Part shown: piece after piece, positions 41,000-53,075 of the stretch
Layout: every line of letters begins with the position of its first letter
Numbering within the stretch: position 1 is the stretch's first letter
NCBI GenBank assembly: GCA_028868855.1
Contig: JAGWTR010000001.1
Coordinates: 372,001 to 436,000, forward strand
Length of the DNA: 64,000 nt
Reading direction: 5' to 3'
Source of the DNA: Burkholderiales bacterium
GTDB lineage: Bacteria > Pseudomonadota > Gammaproteobacteria > Burkholderiales > Burkholderiaceae_C
Position numbers and translations under genes: made by a program
The notes under the pieces: generated by a model
Told to the model about the DNA's origin: nothing
Database searches by the model: none
The model's input: only the letters and a program-made list of their open reading frames with translations

Positions 41000-41315
41000 G
41001 ACTTTTTTAGCACGTTGAATTCATTGATTTTTTGGCCTGAGTTTTGCTGACTTGCGCACCTGGCGACTCACTTGGCTACCCAAATAGTCCGTGCTTCACG
41101 AGGTGCTCATCTGGCCCCAACGGATGGCTGCATTATCTCGTCGGGAAGTGTCGATCATTCGGATGGCTTTTTTGCGACTGCTCAGAACTTCGGGGCATTG
41201 GCGCGCGCCGGGTCTTATGGTCAATGGCTGACCTGACGACAGAGTCAGTAAAAACGGTGTCAACAGGGTCGATTCACACCGGCCTGCGCTGCACGAGTTG
41301 AATGGGTCAGGATGC
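41000..41315. other. Intergenic region before the ars island
   Basis: About 316 bp between the xth start and the arsR promoter. One open frame of 85 codons (41044-41301) exists but has no ribosome site, no recognisable family and no conservation-like codon pattern, so I do not call it. I see no terminator, tRNA or repeat here. The interval marks the left edge of the arsenic/metal cluster. Confidence 0.5.
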
Positions 41316-41350
41316 TTGACATAATTTGATACTTCAATCATTATTGAAGA
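41316..41350 (+). promoter_or_regulatory. arsR promoter with overlapping palindromic operator
   Basis: TTGACA at 41316-41321 and CATTAT at 41339-41344, 17 bp apart, make a good -35 and a fair -10. A perfect palindrome, CTTCAAT (41332-41338) and ATTGAAG (41343-41349) around CATT, covers the -10. The predicted transcription start falls on or next to the arsR ATG at 41351, so the message would be leaderless. An ArsR operator overlapping the -10 is the classic layout. Confidence 0.75.
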
Positions 41351-41704
41351 ATGGAAGAGCAGGCCGTTGTCAAATCCCTTGCCGCACTGGCCCAGCCTGT
41401 GCGCTTGCGCGTTTTTCGTGCGCTGGTGGTGGCGGGTCCTCAGGGGCTCACCCCCGGTGATTTGGCCGCGCAATTGGAGGTGGCCGCCACCACACTGTCC
41501 TTCCACCTCAAAGAGTTGATGTACGCCGACCTGGTCAGCCAGGAGCGCGACGGTCGCCACCTGATTTATCGCGCGGCTTTTGATCACATGGATGGTTTGC
41601 TGGGCTATCTGACCGAGCACTGCTGCAAGGGGCAACCTTGCGCACCCACGCCGTCCACCCCGTCTGGTAAGCCCGCACGCAAGCGGGCTTGCACGACCTG
41701 CTGA
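41351..41704 (+). CDS. arsR: ArsR-family arsenic-responsive repressor
   Basis: A 117-residue winged-helix repressor. The helix-turn-helix is GLTPGDLAAQLEVAATTLSFHLKELMYADLV (residues 32-62). The C-terminus has a metalloid-type Cys group, EHCCKGQPC (C91, C92, C97), plus a late CTTC. This is the layout of ArsR proteins that bind As(III) near the C-terminus, as in Acidithiobacillus ferrooxidans, and not the CxC-in-helix type of the E. coli plasmid protein. A palindrome lies immediately before the start. The downstream gene begins 11 nt after the stop, so it should be autoregulated with the whole first unit. Confidence 0.92.
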   Translation: MEEQAVVKSLAALAQPVRLRVFRALVVAGPQGLTPGDLAAQLEVAATTLSFHLKELMYADLVSQERDGRHLIYRAAFDHMDGLLGYLTEHCCKGQPCAPTPSTPSGKPARKRACTTC

Positions 41705-41715
41705 AGGAGACCCCC

Positions 41716-42204
41716 ATGAAGCGCTTTCACGTCCACGTGCATGTCGATGACCTGGCCCGCAACATCGACTTCTATTCGAAGATGTTTGGCACCGCGCCGG
41801 CACGGGTTGAATCCGACTATGCCAAGTGGATGCTCGAAGCCCCGGCCGTCAACTTCGCGATCTCCACCCGCGGCCACGGCCACACCGGGGTGGACCACCT
41901 GGGCATCCAGGTCGACAACGCCGCCGACCTGCTGGCGCTGAAAACCCAGGCGCAGGCGGCGGACCTGTCTTTGATCGACGAAGGCGCCACCACCTGCTGC
42001 TACGCCCGCAGCGACAAGCACTGGGTGATCGACCCGCAAGGCCTGCCTTGGGAGCACTTCCAGACGCTGGGCACCATCCCGGTGTTCCGTGAAGAGGCGC
42101 CGGCCATACAGGCGCCCGCGCAGGCCAGCGCCTGCTGCACACCCAAGGTCAGTGGCAAGCCCATTGGCATCCCCGTCAAATCATCGCCCTCCAGTTGCTG
42201 CTGA
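41716..42204 (+). CDS. arsI: ArsI/CadI-family protein, probable organoarsenical C-As lyase
   Basis: A 162-residue vicinal-oxygen-chelate (glyoxalase-fold) protein: MKRFHVHVHVDDLARNIDFYSKMFGTAP, then GVDHLGIQVDNAADLLAL, then ATTCCYARSDKHWVIDPQGLPWEHFQTL. His near residue 5-9, H61 and E113 are the likely Fe(II) ligands, and the adjacent C94-C95 is the As(III)-binding pair known in ArsI. ArsI cleaves the carbon-arsenic bond of trivalent methyl- or aromatic arsenicals with oxygen. The related CadI proteins share the fold, so the substrate is inferred from context. The C-terminal tail has extra Cys pairs (ASACCTP, SSCC). Good GGAG seven bases before the ATG. Confidence 0.85.
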   Translation: MKRFHVHVHVDDLARNIDFYSKMFGTAPARVESDYAKWMLEAPAVNFAISTRGHGHTGVDHLGIQVDNAADLLALKTQAQAADLSLIDEGATTCCYARSDKHWVIDPQGLPWEHFQTLGTIPVFREEAPAIQAPAQASACCTPKVSGKPIGIPVKSSPSSCC

Positions 42205-42212
42205 GCCCCCAC

Positions 42213-42263
42213 ATGAGCACCCACGTTCTGATTCTGTGCACGCACAACTCGGCGCGCAGCTGA
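42213..42263 (+). pseudogene. 16-codon remnant of a thioredoxin-type arsenate reductase (arsC) start
   Basis: ATG at 42213 begins a 16-codon frame reading MSTHVLILCTHNSARS, then TGA at 42261. CTHNSAR is the C-x5-R phosphate-binding loop found at the very N-terminus of LMW-phosphatase-type arsenate reductases; nothing of the remaining 120 or so residues is present. The stop is followed at once by the ribosome site and start of acr3. It looks like the scar of a deletion that removed the rest of arsC. It might still be translated as a leader and couple translation of acr3. Confidence 0.8.
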
Positions 42264-42274
42264 GGACATCGACC

Positions 42275-43357
42275 ATGAACACCACCGTTGCCGCCATGGC
42301 ACCACTCAAGGCCGACCCGGCGCCCATGAGCGTCTTCGAGCGCTACCTGACCGTGTGGGTCTTTCTGTGCATCGTGGCCGGGATTGTGCTGGGCCAGGTG
42401 CTGCCTGAGGTCTTTCAAGCCATCGGCCACATGGAGGTCGCCAAGGTCAACCTGCCTGTGGGCCTGCTCATCTGGGTGATGATCATCCCCATGCTGATCA
42501 AGGTGGACTTTGGCAGCCTGTCCCAGGTCAAGCAGCACTGGCGGGGCATTGGCGTCACCCTGTTTGTCAACTGGGCCGTCAAGCCGTTTTCGATGGCGCT
42601 GCTGGGCTGGCTCTTCGTGCGCCACCTGTTTGCGCCTTACCTGCCTGCCGGGCAGCTCGACAGCTACATCGCCGGCCTGATCCTGCTGGCCGCCGCCCCC
42701 TGCACGGCCATGGTGTTCGTGTGGAGCCGCCTGACCGGCGGCAACCCCTTGTTCACGCTGTCGCAAGTGGCCTTGAACGACAGCATCATGGTGTTTGCCT
42801 TTGCCCCCATCGTGGCGCTGCTGCTGGGCCTGTCGTCCATCGTGGTGCCGTGGGACACCCTGGTGACCTCGGTGCTGCTCTACATCGTGATCCCCGTGGC
42901 CTTGGCTCAAATGCTGCGCGCGGCGCTGCTCCAACGTGGCCCGGCGGCTTTCGATGCCGCACTGGCCAAAATTGGCCCCTGGTCGATCACGGCCTTGCTG
43001 GCCACCCTGGTGCTGCTGTTTGCCTTTCAAGGTGAAGCCATCATCAAGCAGCCGCTGGTGATCGCCATGCTGGCGGTGCCCATCCTGATCCAGGTTTTCT
43101 TCAACTCGGCCCTGGCTTACTGGCTCAACCGCCGCGTGGGTGAATCGCATGAAGTGGCCTGCCCATCGGCCTTGATCGGCGCCAGCAACTTCTTCGAGCT
43201 GGCCGTGGCCGCGGCCATCAGCCTGTTCGGCTTTGAATCGGGCGCTGCCCTGGCCACCGTGGTGGGCGTGCTGATCGAGGTGCCCGTGATGCTGTTGGTG
43301 GTGCGTGTGGTCAACCAGAGCAAGGGCTGGTACGAACAAGGACAATGCAAGGCATGA
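42275..43357 (+). CDS. acr3: ACR3-family arsenite efflux permease
   Basis: A 360-residue inner-membrane protein with about ten helices. The conserved ACR3 Cys is in LILLAAAPCTAMVFVWS (C143), and the Glu is in GASNFFELAVAAAISLFG (E308). The N-terminal helix region is FERYLTVWVFLCIVAGIVLGQ. It expels As(III) or related oxyanions using the proton gradient, or ATP when coupled with ArsA. The ATG at 42275 is chosen because GAGGA lies nine bases upstream; the open frame extends far upstream but overlaps arsI and the arsC remnant. It ends in an ATGA overlap with arsC. Confidence 0.94.
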   Translation: MNTTVAAMAPLKADPAPMSVFERYLTVWVFLCIVAGIVLGQVLPEVFQAIGHMEVAKVNLPVGLLIWVMIIPMLIKVDFGSLSQVKQHWRGIGVTLFVNWAVKPFSMALLGWLFVRHLFAPYLPAGQLDSYIAGLILLAAAPCTAMVFVWSRLTGGNPLFTLSQVALNDSIMVFAFAPIVALLLGLSSIVVPWDTLVTSVLLYIVIPVALAQMLRAALLQRGPAAFDAALAKIGPWSITALLATLVLLFAFQGEAIIKQPLVIAMLAVPILIQVFFNSALAYWLNRRVGESHEVACPSALIGASNFFELAVAAAISLFGFESGAALATVVGVLIEVPVMLLVVRVVNQSKGWYEQGQCKA

Positions 43358-43779
43358 ACACCGTCACCATCTATCACAACCCCAAGTGCGGAACCTCCCG
43401 CAACACCCTGGCCTTGATCCGCCATGCCGGTATCGAGCCGCAGGTCATCCTCTATCTGGACACGCCCCCCACGCGCGATGAACTGGTGCAGCTGGTTGCC
43501 GCTTGCGGACTGCCCGTGCGTGAGGTCTTGCGCAACAAGGGCGACATCTATGAAGAACTCAAGCTGGACGACGCCAAGTGGACGGACGATGAGTTGCTGG
43601 ATTTCATGGTCGCGCACCCGATCCTGATCAACCGGCCCATCGTGGTCACCCCCCTGGGCACGCGCCTGTGCCGCCCCTCCGAGTTGGTGCTGGACATCCT
43701 GCCGCCAACCCAGCTGGGCCCCTTCACCAAGGAAGACGGTGAAGTGGTGATTGACGAGCAGGGCCGCCGACTTGCCTGA
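43354..43779 (+). CDS. arsC: Glutaredoxin-dependent arsenate reductase ArsC
   Basis: A 141-residue reductase converting arsenate to arsenite, which the adjacent ACR3 expels. The thioredoxin-like fold starts NTVTIYHNPKCGTSRNTLALI with catalytic C12 and the flanking Arg/His. EVLRNKGDIYEEL and NRPIVVTPLGTRLCRPSE give the Arg residues that bind the oxyanion. This is the glutaredoxin-linked type, unrelated to the remnant upstream of acr3. Its start overlaps the acr3 stop (ATGA), indicating translational coupling. The sigma factor start follows 11 nt after its stop. Confidence 0.94.
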   Translation: MNTVTIYHNPKCGTSRNTLALIRHAGIEPQVILYLDTPPTRDELVQLVAACGLPVREVLRNKGDIYEELKLDDAKWTDDELLDFMVAHPILINRPIVVTPLGTRLCRPSELVLDILPPTQLGPFTKEDGEVVIDEQGRRLA

Positions 43780-43789
43780 GCCCGCTGAC

Positions 43790-44335
43790 ATGCCGGTATC
43801 ACAGGAGCTGCCTTGCCTGATGAGGGCATGGCATGCGCACGAGCGGGAGTTGCGAGGCTGGCTGATCAAGCACGTCGAGGATCAGCACGCAGCGCAGGAC
43901 CTGCTGCAGGATGTGTTCATGAAAGCCTTGCGCCAAGGGAAGGGCTTTTGTGACATCGCCAATGCGCGCGCGTGGCTGTTTGAAGTCACGCGCAATGCGG
44001 TGACCGACCACCTGCGCCGCCGCCGGGCATGGGTTGAGTTGCCCGATGATTTGCCCGCCGCGCAAGACAGCCCCATGCCGGCGGTGGACAGCCTGGCTTC
44101 CTGCCTGCCCCGCGTGCTGGGCGAATTGAGCGACGAAGACCGCGATGCCATCACCGAATGTGACCTCAACGGCATGAGCCAGGAAGACTATGCCCGCAAG
44201 CTGGGTTTGAGTTTGCCCGGTGCCAAGTCACGCGTCCAGAGAGCCCGCAAGCGGCTGCGGGCGCAATTGACGCTGTCTTGCCAGGTGACCGTCGATCCGC
44301 AAGGCCAGGTTTGCTGTTTTGTGCCCCGCGCTTGA
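43790..44335 (+). CDS. ECF RNA polymerase sigma factor, SigZ-like, with Cys-rich tail
   Basis: A 181-residue ECF sigma factor. Region 2 is DQHAAQDLLQDVFMKALRQG ... ARAWLFEVTRNAVTDHLRRRR (residues 31-79). Region 4 is LGELSDEDRDAITECDLNGMSQEDYARKLGLSLPGAKSRVQRARKRLRA (about 110-158). After region 4 a short tail carries C164, C175 and C176, the pattern of SigZ-type sigma factors. No anti-sigma gene follows. It sits at the end of the arsR unit and directly before a motif shared by the next two units, so it probably transcribes them. An in-frame TTG at 43751 would overlap arsC; I use the ATG. Confidence 0.88.
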   Translation: MPVSQELPCLMRAWHAHERELRGWLIKHVEDQHAAQDLLQDVFMKALRQGKGFCDIANARAWLFEVTRNAVTDHLRRRRAWVELPDDLPAAQDSPMPAVDSLASCLPRVLGELSDEDRDAITECDLNGMSQEDYARKLGLSLPGAKSRVQRARKRLRAQLTLSCQVTVDPQGQVCCFVPRA

Positions 44336-44355
44336 CACCAGCGCGCGACGTACCT

Positions 44356-44385
44356 GCATCTTTTTGAAGGCAGTGGCGTCTTCTT
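44356..44385 (+). promoter_or_regulatory. Predicted ECF-sigma promoter, copy 1 (before the permease unit)
   Basis: GCATCTTTTTG at 44356-44366, then 9 nt, then GCGTCTTCTT at 44376-44385. Both blocks and the 9-nt spacer length are identical to the element at 48361-48390. The second block contains CGTC, a common ECF -10 core. It lies 21-50 nt after the sigma gene stop and 45 nt before the permease ATG. Confidence 0.8.
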
Positions 44386-44430
44386 GACCGACAGGCTTGA
44401 CCTGTCGCCCCAGAGGAACACACTGCCGCA

Positions 44431-45483
44431 ATGAACACCACCACCTCCCCCGCCGCCCAGACGACGCCCTTGCTTCGCTGGCTTCTCGGCCTGGCCTTGG
44501 TGGCGCCCGTGTGGTTCTGGGCTTATGGGCACCTCACCGACCTGGCCGACGCCGTTCTGAGCCTGACCGGCCTGACGCGCCAGACGGCCCTGGGTGAAGC
44601 CCTGCATTTCTTCTTTTACGACACGCCCAAGGTCTTGCTCTTGCTCACGGGCATCGTGTTTGTGATGGGCATCGTGCAAACCTTTTTTGCCCCCGAGCGC
44701 ACCCGCGCCTTGCTGGCGGGCAAGCGAACCGGTGTGGGCAATGTGCTGGCGGCCCTGCTGGGCATCGTCACCCCGTTTTGCTCCTGCTCGGCCGTGCCCT
44801 TGTTCATTGGTTTGCTTTCTGCGGGCGTGCCACTGGGCGTGACCTTCTCGTTCCTGATCTCGGCCCCCATGGTCAATGAAGTGGCCCTGACGCTCTTGTT
44901 CGGCATGTTTGGCTGGCAGGTGGCGGGGCTCTACCTGGGCATGGGCTTGCTGGTGGCCATCGTCTCGGGCCTGGTGATCGGCAAGCTGCGCATGGAAGGC
45001 CACCTGGAAGACTGGGTGCAGGCCATCGCCCGGGGTGACGCGGTGCATGTGCAGGCAGAGCGCCTGAACTGGGTACAACGCTTTGAAGCGGGCTGGAGCC
45101 ATGTGCGCGAGATCGTCGGCAAGGTCTGGCCCTATGTGATCGCGGGCATCGCACTGGGCGCGGGCATCCACGGCTATGTGCCCGAAGACTTCATGGCCTC
45201 GATCATGGGGCGTGAGGCCTGGTGGTCGGTGCCCGTGGCCGTGATCCTGGGTGTGCCCATGTACACCAATGCGGCCGGGATCATCCCCATCGTGGAAGCA
45301 CTGATCGGCAAGGGCGCCGCGCTGGGCACCGTGCTGGCTTTCATGATGAGCGTGATTGCCCTGTCTGCGCCTGAAATGATCATCTTGCGCAAGGCCCTCA
45401 AGCCACGCTTGATCGCGACCTTTGCCGGTATCGTGGCCTTTGGCATCTTGCTGGTCGGCTATGTGTTCAACCTCGTGCTGTAA
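44431..45483 (+). CDS. ArsP-like permease (DUF318 family)
   Basis: A 350-residue inner-membrane protein with eight or more helices. It contains TPFCSCSAVPLFIGLLSAGVPLGVTFSFLISAPMVNEVAL, with C117 and C119, the motif of ArsP/DUF318 permeases. The second half has VPMYTNAAGIIPIVEALIGKG and ALSAPEMIILRKALKP. ArsP proteins export trivalent organoarsenicals; other members are linked to copper or unknown substrates. In this cluster, next to an ArsI-like lyase, organoarsenical efflux is plausible. It opens the unit behind promoter motif copy 1, and is followed after 30 nt by a small thioredoxin-like gene. Confidence 0.85.
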   Translation: MNTTTSPAAQTTPLLRWLLGLALVAPVWFWAYGHLTDLADAVLSLTGLTRQTALGEALHFFFYDTPKVLLLLTGIVFVMGIVQTFFAPERTRALLAGKRTGVGNVLAALLGIVTPFCSCSAVPLFIGLLSAGVPLGVTFSFLISAPMVNEVALTLLFGMFGWQVAGLYLGMGLLVAIVSGLVIGKLRMEGHLEDWVQAIARGDAVHVQAERLNWVQRFEAGWSHVREIVGKVWPYVIAGIALGAGIHGYVPEDFMASIMGREAWWSVPVAVILGVPMYTNAAGIIPIVEALIGKGAALGTVLAFMMSVIALSAPEMIILRKALKPRLIATFAGIVAFGILLVGYVFNLVL

Positions 45484-45513
45484 AGCCATCTCCATTGATT
45501 CAAGGACACCATC

Positions 45514-45747
45514 ATGAAAGACATCAAGGTTCTGGGCTCGGGTTGTGCCAATTGCAAGACCACCATTGCGCTGATCGAACAAGTCGCTCAGGAAAAGGGC
45601 GTTGAGATCAAGATGGACAAGGTGCAGGACATGCAGGCCATCATCGGCTACGGCGTCATGTCCACCCCAGGTGTGGTGATGGATGGCAAGGTGGTGCATG
45701 CCGGTGGCGTGCCCAGTCGGGACAAGATTGCGCAGTGGTTGGCATGA
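45514..45747 (+). CDS. Small thioredoxin-fold protein (TM0996/redox-active disulfide family)
   Basis: A 77-residue single-domain protein: KDIKVLGSGCANCKTTIALIEQVA with C11 and C14 (CxxC), then YGVMSTPGVVMDGKVVHAGGVPSRDKIAQWL, where the cis-Pro loop (STPGV) completes the thioredoxin-like fold. These mini-thioredoxins commonly sit beside DUF318 permeases. It resembles the N-terminal domain of the ArsA fusion at 51066, so the two are paralogues. It may carry metalloid to the permease or reduce a disulfide. Its stop overlaps the start of the ATP-grasp-like gene (ATGA). Confidence 0.9.
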   Translation: MKDIKVLGSGCANCKTTIALIEQVAQEKGVEIKMDKVQDMQAIIGYGVMSTPGVVMDGKVVHAGGVPSRDKIAQWLA

Positions 45748-47039
45748 ATGCAGATCGCGAGCCCATGGGTGCGGCACCGCTGAGCACAGCCGAAGCGCTC
45801 AACCTGGGCTGCTACTGCCGCACACTCAACCCGGCGCGGCTTGAGCAGGAGTTGGAGGCCGACGTCAGTTTGGCTGGCTTGGCGCAGGACATCGCGCAAA
45901 CGCGCCCCCACCTGTTCTCGTCCACCGTGGTCTTTCTGACGCAGTCGGTCGCCGACCAGATGACCGCTGCGGTGCAGGCGCTGGAGCGTGTCATGGCCTT
46001 GCCCGCCTACCAGGCCCAGGCGCTGGCACGTGCACCGGCCATTGCCCAGCGTGCGTTTGGGCCCGTGGGCATGTTCATGGGCTATGACTTTCATCTCGGT
46101 GCGCAAGGGCCCAGGCTCATTGAAGTCAACACCAACGCGGGCGGCGCCTTGCTCAATGCCGCTTTGGCCCGCGCCCAGCAATCGTGCTGCGAAGCCATGA
46201 ACTGGGCTTTCAAGCCCGATCCCGCACTGGCCGAACTGGAGGACACCTTCTTTGCGATGTTCACCAGCGAATGGCAGCGGCAGCGCGGCGACCAGCCCAT
46301 GGGCTTGATCGCGATCGTGGACGACGCCCCCAACGAACAATACCTGGCGCCCGAGTTCGAGTTGTGCCGCCAGATGCTCAAGCGCCGTGGCTTGGATGCC
46401 CGCATCGTGGCACCTCAGGCGCTGCAATGGCAAGATGGCCAGTTGCTGACCGATGGCAGTGTGGTCGGCATGGTCTACAACCGCCTCACCGATTTCTATC
46501 TGGCTGAACCCGCCCACCAAGCGCTTCGACAGGCTTATGAAGCCGGGGCCGTGGTGATGACACCGCATCCACGTGCGCATGCCCTGCATGCCGAAAAGCG
46601 CAATTTGGTCGCCCTCAGTGACGCAGGTTTGTTGGCCTCATGGGGCGCCAGCGAATCGGACCGTGCGCTGCTCGGCACTGTGGTGTCGCCAACCATCATG
46701 GTCACGCCAGACAGCGCCGATGCCTTGTGGGCGCAGCGCCGCCAATGGTTCTTCAAACCCGAATCGGGCTACGGGGGCAAGGCCGTCTACCGAGGCGACA
46801 AGTTGACGCGCCGTGTCTGGGCCGATATCACCGCAGGGGGCTTTGTGGCCCAGGCCATGGTGCCGCCCAGTGAGCGACTGATCGAGGTGGACGGCGTACA
46901 GGCCGACCTCAAGTTCGATGTGCGTGCCTATGCTTACGCGGGCCAGGTGCAACTGCTGGCGGCACGCATGTACACCGGGCAGACCACCAACTTCCGCACG
47001 CCCGGCGGCGGGTTTGCGCCCGTGGTGGTCGTACCCTGA
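45744..47039 (+). CDS. ATP-grasp-like enzyme of unknown substrate
   Basis: A 431-residue soluble protein. An acidic strand is followed by YDFHLGAQGPRLIEVNTNAGG at about residue 115-135. From about 336 comes FFKPESGYGGKAVYRGDK, a lysine plus flexible Gly-rich loop as in ATP-grasp ligases. VDLKFDVRAYAY-like metal-site residues follow (DLKFDVRAYAYAGQVQLLAARMY), and the end is TNFRTPGGGFAPV (415-427). Such enzymes join a carboxylate to an amine or thiol with ATP, as in glutathione synthetase. Early Cys residues (GCYC) and SCC are present. Its place between a thioredoxin-like gene and a thiolase in an arsenic island is unexplained. I know no confirmed function. Confidence 0.65.
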   Translation: MNADREPMGAAPLSTAEALNLGCYCRTLNPARLEQELEADVSLAGLAQDIAQTRPHLFSSTVVFLTQSVADQMTAAVQALERVMALPAYQAQALARAPAIAQRAFGPVGMFMGYDFHLGAQGPRLIEVNTNAGGALLNAALARAQQSCCEAMNWAFKPDPALAELEDTFFAMFTSEWQRQRGDQPMGLIAIVDDAPNEQYLAPEFELCRQMLKRRGLDARIVAPQALQWQDGQLLTDGSVVGMVYNRLTDFYLAEPAHQALRQAYEAGAVVMTPHPRAHALHAEKRNLVALSDAGLLASWGASESDRALLGTVVSPTIMVTPDSADALWAQRRQWFFKPESGYGGKAVYRGDKLTRRVWADITAGGFVAQAMVPPSERLIEVDGVQADLKFDVRAYAYAGQVQLLAARMYTGQTTNFRTPGGGFAPVVVVP

Positions 47040-47165
47040 CACTGGACACCGCCGACTCTTTGGGCGAGCATGGCTTGCTGCATCGGGACACCCCGGCCTG
47101 GCGCGCTCGCCAGCACCCGCATTCACAGTGATCCATTTGCTGTTTGACCTACACAAGGAGTGAAC

Positions 47166-48350
47166 ATGAGCCAGCCTGAAGTCGTCATCTGCAACCCTGT
47201 CCGCACCGCCATCGGCACCTATGGTGGCAGCCTCAAAGACGTGTCTGCCCCTGATCTGGGCGCAGCCGTCATCCGCGAAAGCCTCAAACGCTCGGGCCTG
47301 CCCGCCGACCAGATCGAATCGCTCATCATGGGCAACGTCATTCAGGCGGGCGTGAAGATGAACCCTGCTCGGCAAGCGGGGATCGGCTCAGGGCTGCCCG
47401 TCGGGGTGCCTGCGATGACCGTGAACCGCGTGTGCGGCTCAGGCGCGCAGGCCATTGCCAGCGCCGCGCTGGAGATCTGGTCCGGCATGAGCCAGGTGGC
47501 CATCGCCGGGGGCATGGAAAACATGGACCGCGCGCCTTACCTGCTGCCGCAAGGCCGCTGGGGCGCGCGCATGGGCGATGCCACGCTGTTTGACAGCATG
47601 CTCTACGACGGCCTGAACGACGCCTTCAGCGGCAAGCATTCTGGCTGGCACACCGAGGACCTGGTGGCACTGAAGGCCATCAGCCGAGAGGATCAGGACA
47701 GTTGGGCCTTGCGCTCGCAGCAGCGCTTCTCGGCCGCCCAGGCTGAGGGCAAGTTCGACGCCGAAATCGTGACGATCGAAGTGCCGGGTCGCAAAGGCCC
47801 CACGCTCTTTGCCCGCGACGAACACAACCGCCCGGAGACCACGGCCGAATCGCTGGCCAAACTCAAGCCCGCCTTCCGCAAAGAGGGCACGATCACGGCG
47901 GGCAACGCGCCTGGCCTCAACACCGGGGCTGCGGCCATGATCGTGGCCGAGCGCCGCTGGGCCGAAAGCCATGGTTTGAAGCCCATGGCACGCCTGGTGA
48001 GTTACGGCGTGGGTGCGGTTGAACCGGGCATGTTTGGGTTGGGGCCCGTGCCGGCCGTGCGGCAGGCCCTGGCGCGCGCCAAGTGGACCGTGGGTGATGT
48101 GCAGCGCGTCGAGATCAACGAGGCCTTTGCGGCCATCGCCTTGGCATGCCTGCGCGAACTGGGCCTGCCCGAAGACATCGTGAACGTAGAAGGGGGTGCC
48201 ATTGCGCACGGCCACCCCATTGGCGCCTCTGGTGCGGTGCTGACCACGCGCTTGCTGCATTCAATGCAACGTGATGGGCTTCAGCGGGGCGTGGTGACCT
48301 TGTGCATCGGCGGTGGACAAGGCATTGCCCTGGCGCTTGAAATGATCTGA
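47166..48350 (+). CDS. Thiolase (acetyl-CoA C-acyltransferase family)
   Basis: A 394-residue thiolase with the complete catalytic set: C90 in VNRVCGSGAQAIASAA, NEAFAAIALA, H350 in AHGHPIGASGA and C380 in TLCIGGGQG. Length, the VRTAIGTYGGSL start and the GMENMDRAPYLL loop fit the acetyl-CoA acetyltransferase (biosynthetic/PhaA-AtoB) group. It has a strong ribosome site (AAGGAG, five bases before the ATG) and follows the ATP-grasp gene by 126 nt. No other fatty-acid or PHB gene is nearby, so its job in this unit is unclear. It is the last gene before promoter motif copy 2. Confidence 0.9.
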   Translation: MSQPEVVICNPVRTAIGTYGGSLKDVSAPDLGAAVIRESLKRSGLPADQIESLIMGNVIQAGVKMNPARQAGIGSGLPVGVPAMTVNRVCGSGAQAIASAALEIWSGMSQVAIAGGMENMDRAPYLLPQGRWGARMGDATLFDSMLYDGLNDAFSGKHSGWHTEDLVALKAISREDQDSWALRSQQRFSAAQAEGKFDAEIVTIEVPGRKGPTLFARDEHNRPETTAESLAKLKPAFRKEGTITAGNAPGLNTGAAAMIVAERRWAESHGLKPMARLVSYGVGAVEPGMFGLGPVPAVRQALARAKWTVGDVQRVEINEAFAAIALACLRELGLPEDIVNVEGGAIAHGHPIGASGAVLTTRLLHSMQRDGLQRGVVTLCIGGGQGIALALEMI

Positions 48351-48360
48351 TAGGTTTGGC

Positions 48361-48390
48361 GCATCTTTTTGCCATGACCTGCGTCTTCTT
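48361..48390 (+). promoter_or_regulatory. Predicted ECF-sigma promoter, copy 2 (before the small-protein/P-ATPase unit)
   Basis: GCATCTTTTTG at 48361-48371, 9 nt, GCGTCTTCTT at 48381-48390; same blocks and spacing as at 44356-44385, with an unrelated spacer sequence. It begins 11 nt after the thiolase stop and ends 30 nt before the ATG of a 65-residue protein. I take it as a start for the next transcription unit. Confidence 0.8.
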
Positions 48391-48420
48391 CAATGAGACC
48401 ACACTCAATGGAGCAAGATC

Positions 48421-48618
48421 ATGTGCATGGGATACGCCAAAGACATCGCAGCATGGGCTTGTCAAGGGGAGGTGAACCGACGCGAGGCGGCCTTGCTCGC
48501 TTGGGGCGAAACCTGGCTTGAACAAAGGCTTGATCCCGCCGAACAGGAGCCACAAGCAGGGCAACAGCAATGCAGCTCTCTCACTTTGCCTGGTTTGATG
48601 GCAAACCCGCCTGCGTGA
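48421..48618 (+). CDS. 65-residue unknown protein at the head of the P-ATPase unit
   Basis: Starts MCMGYAKDIAAWACQGEVNRREAALLAWGETWLEQRLDPA, then a Gln/Pro-rich tail with QQQCSS. Three Cys (residues 2, 14 and about 51), no membrane segment and no family that I recognise. Support for it being real: a GGAG site eight bases before the ATG, the predicted ECF promoter just upstream, and a helical N-terminal half with a normal amino-acid mix. It stops 24 nt before the P-type ATPase gene. A metal-binding or regulatory role would be speculation. Confidence 0.6.
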   Translation: MCMGYAKDIAAWACQGEVNRREAALLAWGETWLEQRLDPAEQEPQAGQQQCSSLTLPGLMANPPA

Positions 48619-48642
48619 GGCGGCTCATTTTCTGGGCCCCCG

Positions 48643-51000
48643 ATGGCTGAAAAACTCGCACTGCAGTTGGCGCTTGTGCTGCCCGGCGTGCCGGACGACC
48701 GAGATGCCTGCGTGCAGCGCCTGACCGATGTCCTGCAGGCGCAGGGGCTGGAGAAGGTGCACGTCACTCAGCAGGACGGCCAAGCTGTTCTGTGTTTGCA
48801 CTATGACCCGGCCAAGACGAGCCTGCGGCAGGTGCGAGACATGGCGATGGCCGCAGGCGCCCAACTCAGCGCGCGTTATCAGCATGAACTGATGCGCATT
48901 GATGGCATGGACTGCGCGACCTGTGCCGTGGTGATCGAACATGCCCTGCACCGCCTGGATGGCGTCATGGAGGCCTCAGTCAGCTACGCGGCTGAGCGGA
49001 TGCGACTGGAGTACGACACCGAGCGCGTCTCTCGCCAAGCCATCGTGCTGCGCCTCGAAGCCCTGGGCTATGCCGTGCGGGAGCCCGCGCACGAAGAAAC
49101 CTGGTTTGGCCACTACCGTGAGCTGATCGTGAGCACCTTGGCTGGAGCCTTGCTGCTGGCCGGTTGGCTGGTGGGCATGCGCTCTGATGCTCAGTGGGTT
49201 TCTGCCGGCTTGCTGGGCGCGTCGATGCTGCTGGGCGGCTACTACGCCATGCGCGATGCCTGGCAAAGCATTCGCGAGCGTGTGCTGGACATCGATGTGC
49301 TGATGATTGTGGCCGCTTGCGGGGCAGCGGCCCTGGGGCAATGGGCTGAAGGGGCCTTGCTACTCGTGCTGTTCAGCCTAGGCCACGCGCTGGAACACCT
49401 GGCCATGGACCGCGCCCGCCATGCCATCGAGGCCCTGGCCGACCTGGCCCCCAAGACGGCCCTGGTCCTGCGCGACGGCACCGAGCTGACGCTGCCGGTG
49501 GAGGATCTGCAACGCGGGGACCAGGTTCTGGTCAAACCGGGGCAGCGCATCGCGGCCGATGGCAAGGTGCTCGAAGGCAGATCGGCCGTCAACCAGGCGG
49601 CCATCACCGGTGAGTCGATGCCCGTGGACAAGGTGGCCGACTCCGTGGTGTTTGCAGGCACAGTCAACGGTGAAGGTTTGCTGCGTGTCGAGGTGACCAC
49701 GCTGGCCAAAGACAGCTCACTGGCGCGCATGGTGCAACTGGTGGCCGAAGCGCAGACTGAAAAATCACCGACCCAACGCTTCGTCTCCCGCTTCGAGAAG
49801 GTGTTTGTGCCCCTGGTGCTGATCGGTGTGGTCGCGCTCATCGTGATCCCACCCTTGCTGGGCATGCCCTTTGCCGAATCGTTCTACAGAGCGATGGCTG
49901 TGCTGGTGGCGGCCTCGCCTTGCGCCCTGGCCATTGCCACGCCCTCTGCTGTACTGGCTGGTGTGGCCCGGGCTGCGAGTGGGGGCGTGCTGATCAAGGG
50001 GGGCAGGCACCTGGAGAACCTGCGCACGCTGTCGGTCATGGCGTTTGACAAGACCGGCACCATCACCACGGGCCAGCCCAGCGTCACCGATGTGATCGCA
50101 CTGCAGGGCAGTGACGCTGATCTGCTGACCATGGCCGCCAGCGTTGAGCGTCGCAGCGGGCACCCGCTGGCCCAGGCGGTGGTACTGGCAGCGCAGTCGC
50201 GTCAGTTGGCATGGCCTGAGGCCAGCGATGTGCAGGCGGTCACGGGCAAGGGCATGCATGCCGTGGTGTCTTCCAGACAGGTGAGCATCGGGAACCTGCG
50301 GCTGTTCGAGCACGATGGTGTACCCGAAGCCGTTCGCCAGCAAGTACTGGGATTGGAGGCGCAAGGCAAGACCACCATGCTGGTGCGCGTTGAGGGTGCC
50401 TTCATGGGTTTGCTCGCCTTGGCGGACACGCCGCGCCCCGGCATGCGTGAGGTGTTCGCGCGGTTGGCGTCCTTGGGCATCGCCCAGACCGTCATGCTGA
50501 CGGGCGACAACGAGCCCGTCGCCAAGGCGGTGGCCGCATCGGTGGGCATCACTGATGTGCGTGCTGGCTTGCTGCCCGAGGACAAGCTCAAGGTCATTGA
50601 TGAGTTGATGCGTGAGCACAAACAAGTGGCCATGGTCGGGGACGGTGTGAACGATGCGCCTGCCATGGCCCGCGCCACCATCGGCATCGCCATGGGTGGT
50701 GCGGGTACCGATGTGGCCCTGGAAACCGCCGATGTGGCGCTGATGGGCGATGACCTGTCCAAGTTGCCGTTTGCCATCGCCCTGAGCCGCGCCTCCCACA
50801 CGATCATCCAGCAAAACCTGTGGGCCGCGTTTGGGGTCGTGGCGCTGCTCATACCGGCCACGCTGTTTGGATGGGCTAGCATGGGTGTCGCCGTGTTGAT
50901 TCATGAGGGTGCCACGGTATTGGTGGTGCTCAACGCCTTGCGCCTCTTGCGTTTTGTGGATGCAAGCGCTGGACTGGCTGAGCCAACTGGCGCGCAGTAA
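48643..51000 (+). CDS. P1B-type heavy-metal ATPase
   Basis: A 785-residue metal-pumping ATPase. Residues 1-78 look like a first HMA fold that has lost its CxxC. A second HMA at 80-150 keeps GMDCATC (C91, C94). The membrane metal site is AASPCALAIATPSA (C427), the phosphorylation Asp is D469 in DKTGTITTG, and MVGDGVNDAPAMA is the hinge. The last helix has LIHEGATVLVVLNALRLL (H754) in place of the DVGVT of ZntA, closer to the SPC/HEGG group (ZosA, CtpD-like). Substrate is a divalent metal; which one cannot be fixed. It is driven with the small protein and thioredoxin-ArsA genes. Confidence 0.92.
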   Translation: MAEKLALQLALVLPGVPDDRDACVQRLTDVLQAQGLEKVHVTQQDGQAVLCLHYDPAKTSLRQVRDMAMAAGAQLSARYQHELMRIDGMDCATCAVVIEHALHRLDGVMEASVSYAAERMRLEYDTERVSRQAIVLRLEALGYAVREPAHEETWFGHYRELIVSTLAGALLLAGWLVGMRSDAQWVSAGLLGASMLLGGYYAMRDAWQSIRERVLDIDVLMIVAACGAAALGQWAEGALLLVLFSLGHALEHLAMDRARHAIEALADLAPKTALVLRDGTELTLPVEDLQRGDQVLVKPGQRIAADGKVLEGRSAVNQAAITGESMPVDKVADSVVFAGTVNGEGLLRVEVTTLAKDSSLARMVQLVAEAQTEKSPTQRFVSRFEKVFVPLVLIGVVALIVIPPLLGMPFAESFYRAMAVLVAASPCALAIATPSAVLAGVARAASGGVLIKGGRHLENLRTLSVMAFDKTGTITTGQPSVTDVIALQGSDADLLTMAASVERRSGHPLAQAVVLAAQSRQLAWPEASDVQAVTGKGMHAVVSSRQVSIGNLRLFEHDGVPEAVRQQVLGLEAQGKTTMLVRVEGAFMGLLALADTPRPGMREVFARLASLGIAQTVMLTGDNEPVAKAVAASVGITDVRAGLLPEDKLKVIDELMREHKQVAMVGDGVNDAPAMARATIGIAMGGAGTDVALETADVALMGDDLSKLPFAIALSRASHTIIQQNLWAAFGVVALLIPATLFGWASMGVAVLIHEGATVLVVLNALRLLRFVDASAGLAEPTGAQ

Positions 51001-51065: not shown

Positions 51066-53075
51066 ATGGAAATCAAAGTTTTGGGTCTGGGCTGCAGTAA
51101 GTGCCACATCACCATCGAGATGATTGAGCGGGTGGCCAACGCCGCAGGCGTTGCGGTGGAGATCACCAAAATCGAGAACCCCGACGAGATCAAGCGCCTT
51201 GGGGTCAAGGCCACGCCAGCCGTCATGATTGGCGGCCAGATCGTGCACAGCGGCGGTTTGCCATCGCATGAAGAAGTGCAGGCCTGGCTCAAGCCCCAGC
51301 CTCAATTACAACCCCAACCCTTGGGCTTTCTGGAGCATCCGACCCGGCACCTGTTCTTCACGGGCAAAGGCGGCGTCGGCAAGACCTCGTTGTCCACTGC
51401 AACCGCGTTGACGCTGGCCGACGCGGGCAAGAAGGTGCTGCTGGTCAGCACGGACGCGGCATCGAACCTCGATGAAATGCTGGGCATCGCGTTGCGCAAC
51501 ACACCCACGCCCGTGCCGGGCGCACCGGGCTTGTCGGTGCTCAACATCGATCCGGATGTGGCCGCCGAGACCTACCGCCAGCGCGTCCTGGCGCAGATGG
51601 AGGCGCAAACCACCGAGGCCGAGCGGGCCACCGTGCGCGAGCAACTGTCAGGCGCCTGCACCACCGAGATCGCCTCGTTCGACGAGTTCTCGAACCTGCT
51701 GGCCGGGGGCGCCGCTGACTACGACCGCATCGTGTTTGACACGGCGCCCACGGGGCACACGCTGCGCCTGCTGAGCCTGCCCAAAGCCTGGAGCGGCTTC
51801 CTCAAGGACAACGACCGAGGCGCCTCCTGCCTGGGGCCGCATTCGGGCTTGAAGATGCAGGAAGTGCGCTTCAACGCCGCCCTCACGGCCTTATGTGACG
51901 CCGAGCTCACCACCATCGTGCTGGTGGCGCGCGCCGACCGCAGTGCGCTGGCCGAAGCCGCTCGCACCTCCGGTGAGTTGCGAATGCTGGGCTTGAACAA
52001 TCAGCAGTTGGTGATCAACGGCGTGTTCAAGGCCACCGATCCTAACGATGCTGTGGCACGGGCCATCGAGGCCTTGGGCCAACAAGCGCTGGACGCCATG
52101 CCCCAGGCCTTGCGGGCCTTGCCCCAAAGCACGGTGCCTTTGCGGGCCTTTGACACGGTCGGCTTGCCTGCCTTGCGCGCTTTGTTGACCGGCACGCCAC
52201 CCGCCAGTGGGCAGGGTAGGCCACTGCTTGATGAACCGCCTCTGTCCGCAGAGCACATCGACAAGCTGGTGGATGACCTCGCTGCTGCCGGCAAAGGCCT
52301 GATCATGGTGATGGGCAAAGGTGGCGTGGGCAAGACCACCATCGCAGCGGCGCTGGCTATCGGCCTGGTCAAACGTGGACACGCGGTTCACCTCAGCACC
52401 ACCGACCCGGCGGCCCACCTGGCCATGACGCTCGATGGCGAATTGCCGGGCCTGCAAGTCGGTCGCATCGACCCCAAGGCGGAGACGCAGCGTTACATCG
52501 ACAAGATCATGGCCGCACGCTCACCCGGTCTGGACGAGCAGGAAAAAGCCTTGCTGCTGGAGGATCTGCAGTCCCCCTGCACCGAAGAGGTGGCCGTGTT
52601 CCATGCGTTTTCTCGCACGGTGGCCGAGGCCCGCAGTGCCTTCGTGGTGCTGGACACGGCGCCCACCGGTCACTCACTGCTGCTGATGGATGCCACGGGC
52701 GCCTACCACCGCCAGATGACGCGCGAGTTTGAAGGCAAGGCCTCGGTGCATGTGGTCACGCCGCTGATGCGACTGCAAGACGCCAGCTACACCCGCATCA
52801 TCCTGGTCACCTTGCCCGAGGTGACGCCGGTGTCCCAAGCGGCCGCATTGCAGGACGACCTGCGTCGCGCCAAAATCGAACCGTATGCATGGGTGGTCAA
52901 CAAATCCATCCTGGCAGCTGGCACCCATGACCCCTTGCTGCAAGCGCGGCTGGATGGCGAGCGCAGGCAAATGGCCAGGCTGTCAGGTGGATTGGCTCAG
53001 CGGACGTTTGCCGTGCCATGGGTGGCTCAAGCGCCGGTGGGGCTGGCAGCGCTGTCGGTTTTGTTGGCCTCCTGA
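51066..53075 (+). CDS. Thioredoxin-fold domain fused to a complete ArsA arsenite-pump ATPase
   Basis: A 669-residue fusion. Residues 1-76 are a mini-thioredoxin domain (CxxC at C10-C13 in GLGCSKCH, cis-Pro in ATPAVM). A Gln/Pro linker follows (about 77-88), then two ArsA halves: first P-loop GKGGVGKTS at 100-108 with DTAPTGHTLRLL, second P-loop GKGGVGKTT at 417-425 with DTAPTGHSLLLMD. The three Cys of the known metalloid site are present: C198 (SGACTTE), C255 (GASCLGP) and C505 (SPCTEE). ArsA powers arsenite pumps, here probably ACR3. No arsD is present; the fused domain may take the place of that thioredoxin-fold chaperone. Confidence 0.92.
   Translation: MEIKVLGLGCSKCHITIEMIERVANAAGVAVEITKIENPDEIKRLGVKATPAVMIGGQIVHSGGLPSHEEVQAWLKPQPQLQPQPLGFLEHPTRHLFFTGKGGVGKTSLSTATALTLADAGKKVLLVSTDAASNLDEMLGIALRNTPTPVPGAPGLSVLNIDPDVAAETYRQRVLAQMEAQTTEAERATVREQLSGACTTEIASFDEFSNLLAGGAADYDRIVFDTAPTGHTLRLLSLPKAWSGFLKDNDRGASCLGPHSGLKMQEVRFNAALTALCDAELTTIVLVARADRSALAEAARTSGELRMLGLNNQQLVINGVFKATDPNDAVARAIEALGQQALDAMPQALRALPQSTVPLRAFDTVGLPALRALLTGTPPASGQGRPLLDEPPLSAEHIDKLVDDLAAAGKGLIMVMGKGGVGKTTIAAALAIGLVKRGHAVHLSTTDPAAHLAMTLDGELPGLQVGRIDPKAETQRYIDKIMAARSPGLDEQEKALLLEDLQSPCTEEVAVFHAFSRTVAEARSAFVVLDTAPTGHSLLLMDATGAYHRQMTREFEGKASVHVVTPLMRLQDASYTRIILVTLPEVTPVSQAAALQDDLRRAKIEPYAWVVNKSILAAGTHDPLLQARLDGERRQMARLSGGLAQRTFAVPWVAQAPVGLAALSVLLAS

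Follow-up and report, generated by a model that had tools for sequence, protein, structure and literature searches.

A gene for an extracytoplasmic function (ECF) sigma factor closes the arsenic resistance operon in the 64-kb stretch of Burkholderiales DNA analyzed here (the window; coordinates are positions in it), and each of two operons that follow on the same strand is preceded by a copy of one 30-nt, two-block element. We regard it as highly likely that this little-studied sigma factor, SigZ, reads the element as a promoter, with ArsR controlling sigZ and SigZ then opening both operons, possibly under a second control exerted through cysteines of the sigma factor. The computational observations are the motif with its two genomic places, its association with SigZ in genome comparisons, the constant spacing and the position 5' of the genes. 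Co-occurrence across genomes, the spacing, the footprints and a control with permease genes from SigZ-free genomes support the pairing of SigZ with this promoter, and at the level of sequence the view that the sigma factor drives both units through the element is well supported.

The element, GCATCTTTTTG-N9-GCGTCTTCTT, lies on the forward strand at 44356-44385 and at 48361-48390, with 0 mismatches over the 21 block positions, equal spacer length and different spacer sequences, as described in the initial annotation of the window. Each copy can be read as a predicted SigZ promoter with a -35 block GCATCTTTT (44356-44364 and 48361-48369), 12 intervening nucleotides and a -10 block CGTCTTC (44377-44383 and 48382-48388); the usual ECF layout is GCATC, 16 nt, CGTC. 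The first copy stands 45 nt before the ATG of a permease gene (44431) and the second 30 nt before the ATG of a small open reading frame (ORF; 48421), exactly the two ends of the range that had been estimated. No further copy with up to 3 mismatches was found in the window (none in 100 shuffles) or in the 3.40-Mb genome (none in the backward control), so the reported lack of a third copy in the window extends to the genome, and random genome-wide occurrence, which the annotation had named as evidence against its own proposal, is not seen at this level (0 extra sites). On these counts a chance repeat was rejected. The relaxed pattern derived from the whole family, with up to 1 mismatch, likewise matched only the same two genomic sites (backward control, 1), and a third, even looser pattern (2 mismatches allowed) added 7 dissimilar sites versus 1 in the backward control. 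The one descriptive claim that failed is that the motif is private: although it occupies only two places in its own genome, it is present in the SigZ loci of many relatives, and a window-only motif was rejected.

These relatives were fetched via the sigma protein alone, as the best 80 of 474 confirmed SigZ loci (loci and genomes are cited below by L and G numbers). The strict motif occurs in them at 54 sites in 46 loci with the spacing seen in the window, whose own two copies are extra, at no site with a spacer one nucleotide shorter and at 1 with a spacer one longer. For the relaxed motif, which is present at least once in 64 of the 80 loci, the spacer is 12 nt in 73 cases, 11 nt in 1, 13 nt in 1 and 8-10 or 14-16 nt in none; the reversed DNA of the same loci yields 0 matches at any spacer from 8 to 16 nt. 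The motif also recurs before the same genes, as the annotation would have it: among 55 loci with a comparable permease gene (at least 55% identity, E <= 1e-20, query start <= 60, flank of at least 150 nt), 48 have the relaxed form within 260 nt 5' of that gene, compared with 0 of 55 in reversed DNA. Among the seven misses, the motif lies farther upstream, before an earlier operon gene or ORF, in L064, L067, L109 and L110, and also farther upstream in L113; L078 has a weaker form, and the best form in L084 is no better than chance sites. Acidovorax soli, with 83% sigma identity, carries both promoters at the same two places (the second at L056:7557) with different spacers.

The same relation holds at the level of the order. 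In 300 genomes, of which 16 encode SigZ at 45% identity or more (the weaker matches in G070, G139 and G152 being classed as non-carriers), the strict motif was found in 14 and in 1 genome of the backward control. It is present in 13 of the 16 SigZ genomes versus 1 of the 284 others (Fisher p = 4e-19, in a test that treats these related genomes as independent). The three SigZ genomes lacking the strict motif are G195, G217 and G163, and GAATCC forms stand 5' of the permease gene in the latter two. The relation between SigZ and the motif appears to work in trans, because motif sites are found on contigs other than that of sigZ (G111, G256, G034 and G291) or more than 1 Mb away from it (G020). 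These genomes contain 47 permease matches, and the loci of 30 were read. Of the 17 permease loci from SigZ-free genomes (three with permeases of only 48-51% identity), 16 lack the motif, which led us to reject the possibility that it is tied to the permease gene instead of SigZ. By comparison, 9 of 13 permease loci from SigZ genomes have the relaxed motif 5' of the gene within the DNA examined (about 1.1 kb away in L187), and L170 and L171 have near forms of it at the right place.

The predicted targets are consistent in kind. After 72 strict sites, the first gene, as assigned by a simple gene-calling script, encodes an ArsP_1 permease in 40; the other first genes include those for an ArsE-type thioredoxin, FmdE, a second ArsP_1 type, TauE, a cation-diffusion exporter and a thiolase, and genes for OsmC and metallo-beta-lactamase-fold proteins occur farther along motif-led operons. 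The BktB-like thiolase is a surprising member of a regulon for metal resistance; two other genomes (L070:10648; L151) have its gene immediately behind a predicted SigZ promoter. In L090, L112, L127, L132, L134 and L135, the script-called permease start lies 4 nt past the 30-nt element, which would imply a very short or absent leader if the start calls are right.

A further hint comes from variation in the -35 block. The variant GCGTC is the sole form in 16 loci, and residue 143 of the sigma factor is serine in all 16, compared with 7 of the 46 loci that have only GCATC; this is the strongest of the 181 positions compared, uncorrected, among 62 loci (two with both forms, one with GAATC and 16 without the motif were excluded). 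In the AlphaFold model, residue 143 is located at the start of the last helix of region 4. On the tree, which had 63 labelled rows (16 G and 47 A, the GAATC locus being counted with the latter), the motif form changed at least 6 times, leaving only two well-supported independent pairs, and we set this covariation aside as proof of contact and keep it as support only.

sigZ itself (43790-44335, forward strand) begins 11 nt past arsC and stops 20 nt before the first element. Its profile match and position bear out the original assignment of an ECF sigma gene to the end of the arsR unit. The 181-aa, two-domain product scores above the cut-offs for Pfam region 2 and region 4 (PF04542 and PF08281) and contains cysteines at positions 9, 54, 105, 124, 164, 175 and 176. 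It passes the SigZ model TIGR02959 by a small margin (172.5 versus 168.65 bits) and stays below the related model NF007215 (142.5 versus 212); on these profiles, it is a member of the SigZ family of ECF sigma factors. The AlphaFold model, built from 81 sequences (mean predicted local distance difference test score 90.6, predicted template modelling score 0.48), has ECF sigma chains as its best structural matches. The whole genome has only 6 Sigma70_r2 matches, so that few other sigma factors would compete for the element. No anti-sigma gene was noticed beside sigZ, whose neighbors in the window are arsC and the permease gene, and none was recognised among the gene clusters present in at least 5 of the 81 loci, which were only partly scanned for families.

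The scheme that we consider for the window starts at the ars operon. A sigma-70-like promoter, TTGACA-17-CATTAT (41316-41344, forward strand), precedes arsR, and an inverted repeat, ATACTTCAAT/ATTGAAGAAT (41329-41352), overlaps this promoter and reaches the arsR start codon; this repeat is the probable ArsR operator. A consensus scan of 41050-48700 detected only this promoter and one overlapping it (2 found, 1.0 expected from shuffles); downstream of the ars promoter, as far as 48700, it found no other sigma-70-like site. Arsenite, the presumed signal, would release ArsR from the operator, and more SigZ would then be made, sigZ being the last gene of the operon. SigZ would direct RNA polymerase to the -35 and -10 blocks of the element, where transcription is expected to start, and would thus open the permease/thioredoxin/ATP-grasp/thiolase operon and the small protein/P-type ATPase/thioredoxin-ArsA operon. 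A second control, by which conserved cysteines let SigZ respond to a thiol-binding metalloid, is suggested by the lack of a noticed anti-sigma gene and by the many relatives in which no upstream ars repressor was detected.

The cysteines of SigZ are indeed well conserved. Among 81 SigZ proteins, C105 and C164 are invariant, and C124 is found in 80, C9 in 74, C54 in 73, C175 in 44 and C176 in 42. C9 and C54 occur together in 73 proteins, one occurs alone in 1 and neither is found in 7, a joint loss that looks as if the two were paired. In a wider set of 27 relatives (of 30 matches; L202, L207 (inner stop) and L210 (own genome) were omitted), C105 and C164 are kept in 27 of 27, down to about 24% identity. 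At 43% identity or more (16 members), C124 is always present and the other cysteines mostly are, and 4 of the 16 have the motif in the short stretch of DNA examined; the 11 members at 36% identity or less lack C9, C54 and C124, and 0 of 11 have the motif in such a stretch. Since C105 and C164 run throughout the family and C9, C54 and C124 are confined to its nearer members, the former appear to mark the family and the latter the promoter-bearing clade. On this pattern, the sigma factor itself may sense a metalloid via its cysteines.

SigZ relatives are also common on plasmids. A tblastn search detected one in 1,367 of 72,556 plasmid records, of which 1,050 are from Klebsiella and 1,140 are predicted to be conjugative. 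Two kinds of arrangement were seen. In one (48.6% identity; L222 and L231), sigZ is followed by the strict motif, a permease gene and a thioredoxin gene, the L222 permease being unannotated and 39% identical to that of the window. The other has the order arsR-arsH-sigZ-arsD-arsA (arsA is not annotated in L224, beside which lies an arsRDABC cluster), and its sigZ-arsD junction carries GCATCTTTT-N12-CGTTTACC, a variant in the -10 block; both blocks are invariant over five enterobacterial variants and the spacer varies. The junction query matched 1,253 plasmid records (1,242 with query coverage of 80% or higher, 1,010 with identity of 99% or higher) and 45 of 5,426 E. coli genomes, including 17 chromosomal matches; these are counts of query matches, the promoter element itself having been read only in the fetched stretches. 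Starting where the -10 block of the sigZ-arsD junction ends, an invariant inverted repeat, CCTCAGTGT...ACACTGAGG, is found at L224:9551-9584 and likewise in L225, L227, L228 and L229, and could be an operator or a hairpin in the 5' untranslated region. On a Salmonella Infantis plasmid, a gene beside arsH, arsD and arsA is listed as a sig70-like sigma factor, with no regulon given in the available part of the source (PMC12504007).

Published expression values bear on this second arrangement. In RNA-seq of an E. coli plasmid in brain heart infusion (BHI) medium, made without transcription-start mapping by its own statement, the available part of the report (PMC6286996) gives arsR 21 reads per kilobase per million (RPKM), arsH 39, a hypothetical gene at the sigma position 47, arsD 9 and the two pieces of arsA 4 each. 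We take the hypothetical gene to be the sigma gene and the culture to have been without added arsenic. The drop from the sigma position to arsD is consistent with a separate, silent promoter before arsD, and the presence of sigma mRNA while its targets are low (47 versus 9 and 4 RPKM) makes a second control on the sigma protein plausible.

Several observations count against the proposed scheme. No relaxed motif was seen in 16 of the 80 SigZ loci within the stretch of DNA examined, and the second-copy permease genes L166 and L168, from SigZ genomes, are without the motif. The covariation of residue 143 is not significant on the tree (same direction in 1.8 of 2 pairs on average, never opposite, sign test p = 0.5), and some of the regulon genes (thiolase, FmdE and TauE) are not classical arsenic genes. 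In G033, a 92% complete draft, the motif stands 5' of the permease gene and no SigZ was found, which would suit an element that serves another regulator, a repressor or activator of the permease/thioredoxin operons, with SigZ as a bystander; each block, moreover, is short on its own. We nevertheless rate such a site as highly improbable, because the blocks are asymmetric and spaced like ECF -35 and -10 elements, with a single predominant length, the motif can be predicted from the presence of SigZ, unlinked sites included, 16 of the 17 SigZ-free permease loci lack it and the common -35 variant tracks residue 143, if not significantly on the tree. In the window, no terminator-like site was found between sigZ and the permease gene (44335-44431), so that the second unit might be transcribed by read-through from the ars promoter as well, and a terminator-like stem lies within the third unit, between the small protein and P-type ATPase genes (48607-48623), in a scan that found 7 such sites versus 5.5 expected by chance. 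With all genes on one strand, the second and third units might be expressed mainly by read-through and the element be minor; this, too, seems improbable, given that the motif persists at targets that lie apart from sigZ or from every ars gene detected and that RPKM on the plasmid falls from the sigma position to arsD (PMC6286996, available part).

The signal that feeds SigZ is harder to assign. SigZ might always be active, with its ArsR-set amount as the only control, as the operon order in the window and the sigma-70-like promoter and inverted repeat 5' of arsR would suggest; a similar order is annotated on an Ideonella plasmid (a helix-turn-helix gene, arsI, arsC, arsC, acr3, sigZ, the motif, permease, thioredoxin, arsA), and enterobacteria have arsR-arsH-sigZ. 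The survey of upstream genes fits this poorly. It covered the 67 of the 80 loci that have at least 3 kb of upstream DNA and queried five kinds of ars gene, so that the linkage found is a lower bound: a co-directional ars gene lies within 6 kb upstream of sigZ in only 27 of the 67, the sole ars gene is on the other strand in 3, and none of the five kinds was found in 37. The motif is kept in 22 of the 27, 2 of the 3 and 29 of the 37, respectively. In 4 of the 37, genes of a kinase/response-regulator group stand upstream instead: directly before sigZ in L093 (6152-9893) are genes for a phosphonate-binding-type protein, a histidine kinase and a sigma-54 activator (Pfam assignments), a trio that presumably resembles AioXSR, and the upstream genes of L104, L132 and L133 come from the same clusters. 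Because most loci without a queried ars gene keep the motif, the upper tier seems to be interchangeable, and ArsR is unlikely to be the signal for the family as a whole. Together with the invariant cysteines and the plasmid RPKM values (PMC6286996, available part), this leaves control by ArsR alone possible but doubtful. Of the cascade put forward in the initial annotation, then, the pairing of sigma factor and promoter is upheld by co-occurrence and spacing; sigZ does stand last in an ars operon that has a sigma-70-like promoter and an overlapping repeat, and what gives way is ArsR release as the whole signal. Direct sensing, in which binding of As(III) or some other thiophilic species to cysteines of SigZ would switch the sigma factor and ArsR or other regulators would form an optional upper tier, is to our mind evenly poised. 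The conservation of C105, C164 and C124 and the joint pattern of C9 and C54 speak for it, as do the precedents of CorE/CorE2 (PMC8999054) and of OrbS, where control by Fur is combined with an on-board iron sensor (PMC9023288), both sources available in part. Against it, the cysteine pattern of SigZ is unlike that of CorE or OrbS, C105 and C164 are shared with the distant, motif-free SigZ proteins and so may be structural, and position 124 is alanine or serine in five arsD-type enterobacterial SigZ proteins, which keep the other listed cysteines. C175 and C176 are found in 22 and 21 of the 27 ars-linked SigZ proteins versus 13 of the 37 unlinked ones, the opposite of what simple self-sensing would predict for that pair. 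With confidence slightly short of even, we tentatively extend our preferred scheme to the whole SigZ clade: its sigma factors would respond to metalloids by means of built-in cysteine sensors and form an exchangeable relay (below ArsR, below the kinase/response-regulator group, or alone) that would act through one conserved promoter on a mobile metal(loid) and thiol regulon: ArsP_1 permease, ArsE-type thioredoxin, arsDA, cation diffusion facilitator and P-type exporters, thiolase and FmdE, also as carried by more than 1,000 enterobacterial plasmid records.

The remaining genes of the three units, all on the forward strand, were assigned as follows. In the ars operon, sigZ is preceded by arsR (41351-41704; NF033788, 62.1 bits versus a cut-off of 55), a gene for a vicinal oxygen chelate metalloenzyme of the arsI/cadI type (41716-42204; NF041414, 128.5 versus 116), the arsenite efflux transporter gene acr3 (42275-43357; TIGR00832, 391.3 versus 282.8, scanned as 42149-43357 with the start codon chosen by eye) and the arsenate reductase gene arsC (43354-43779; TIGR00014, 144.7 versus 106.05). 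The second unit comprises the ArsP_1 family permease gene (44431-45483; PF03773, 254.2 bits), a thioredoxin-like gene of the MTH895/ArsE family (45514-45747; TIGR00412, PF13192), a gene labelled by eye as ATP-grasp-like (45744-47039; 0 matches in NCBIfam and Pfam), whose protein cluster has members in 8 of the 81 SigZ loci, and the BktB-like thiolase gene (47166-48350; TIGR01930 above cut-off, PF00108/PF02803). The third begins with an ORF for a cysteine-containing 65-aa protein (48421-48618), relatives of which were found among the 80 loci only in L056 (60%) and L099 (42%), followed by genes for a heavy-metal P-type ATPase (48643-51000; TIGR01525, 615.6 versus 346.25) and a thioredoxin-ArsA fusion (51066-53075; PF13192 and PF02374, the latter in 2 stretches).

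Arsenic resistance is usually described as ArsR repression, and the present scheme, if true, adds a sigma-factor tier to it. SigZ gains together a candidate promoter, a target set and a metal(loid) context, and many conjugative plasmids of enterobacteria, whose sigma gene carries a generic annotation, likely have an overlooked promoter before arsDA. Judging from the genomes compared, the SigZ-promoter circuit appears to be widespread in many Proteobacteria and on enterobacterial plasmids, with ArsR as one of several upper tiers. Our literature searches, as far as the texts were available, found no description of this sigma/arsenic circuit and no promoter or regulon for SigZ, and the available parts of PMC3022917 and PMC2848651 do not mention a comparable ECF sigma factor.

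With the SigZ family (TIGR02959, which by a control search includes the Bacillus subtilis protein), the sigma factor of the window shares a score above the curated cut-off, the two-domain ECF layout and C105 and C164; its clade adds C9, C54, mostly C124 and often C175/C176, together with a recurring promoter and metal(loid) targets, the B. subtilis protein itself lying outside this comparison. The SigZ locus of Priestia megaterium has no motif in 12.5 kb. The nearest functional parallels are CorE and CorE2 of Myxococcus, likewise ECF sigma factors with conserved cysteines, metal-resistance targets and no anti-sigma gene noticed (PMC8999054 and PMC9023288, here and below from the parts available). 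CorE-like factors (former ECF44) are defined by a CXC motif in the linker (PMC8999054) and have a C-terminal cysteine-rich domain of the type Cys-X4-Cys-X2-Cys-X-Cys (PMC9023288), whereas SigZ has neither: only seven columns of our alignment A2 contain at least 8 cysteines, none of them two positions from C105, there is no CXC between sigma2 and sigma4, and the C-terminal spacing is C164-X10-C175-C176. OrbS of Burkholderia cenocepacia also has two tiers, with Fur controlling the sigma gene and C-terminal cysteines controlling the sigma protein, but it serves iron uptake and is inhibited by Fe(II), whereas for SigZ metalloid activation and an ArsR tier are proposed; its pattern, Cys-X2-Cys-X3-Cys-X5-Cys (PMC9023288), is not found in SigZ either. 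Because neither cysteine pattern fits, we do not file SigZ with CorE or OrbS. An alternative sigma factor is likewise involved in the betaproteobacterial arsenic response in the case of AoxRS/RpoN and arsenite oxidase (PMC2848651, available part), a system that combines sigma-54, a two-component activator and a -12/-24 promoter, whereas the window has an ECF sigma gene inside the ars operon. CnrH of Cupriavidus is an ECF sigma factor for metal resistance with CnrY as its anti-sigma, whereas no anti-sigma gene was noticed beside sigZ. The SigZ model matches the fold of CnrH in PDB 4cxf, a structure that also contains the cytosolic domain of CnrY. Finally, the first unit of the window is shared with ArsR-controlled ars operons, and the difference lies at its end, where an ECF sigma gene is followed by its own predicted promoters for further operons.

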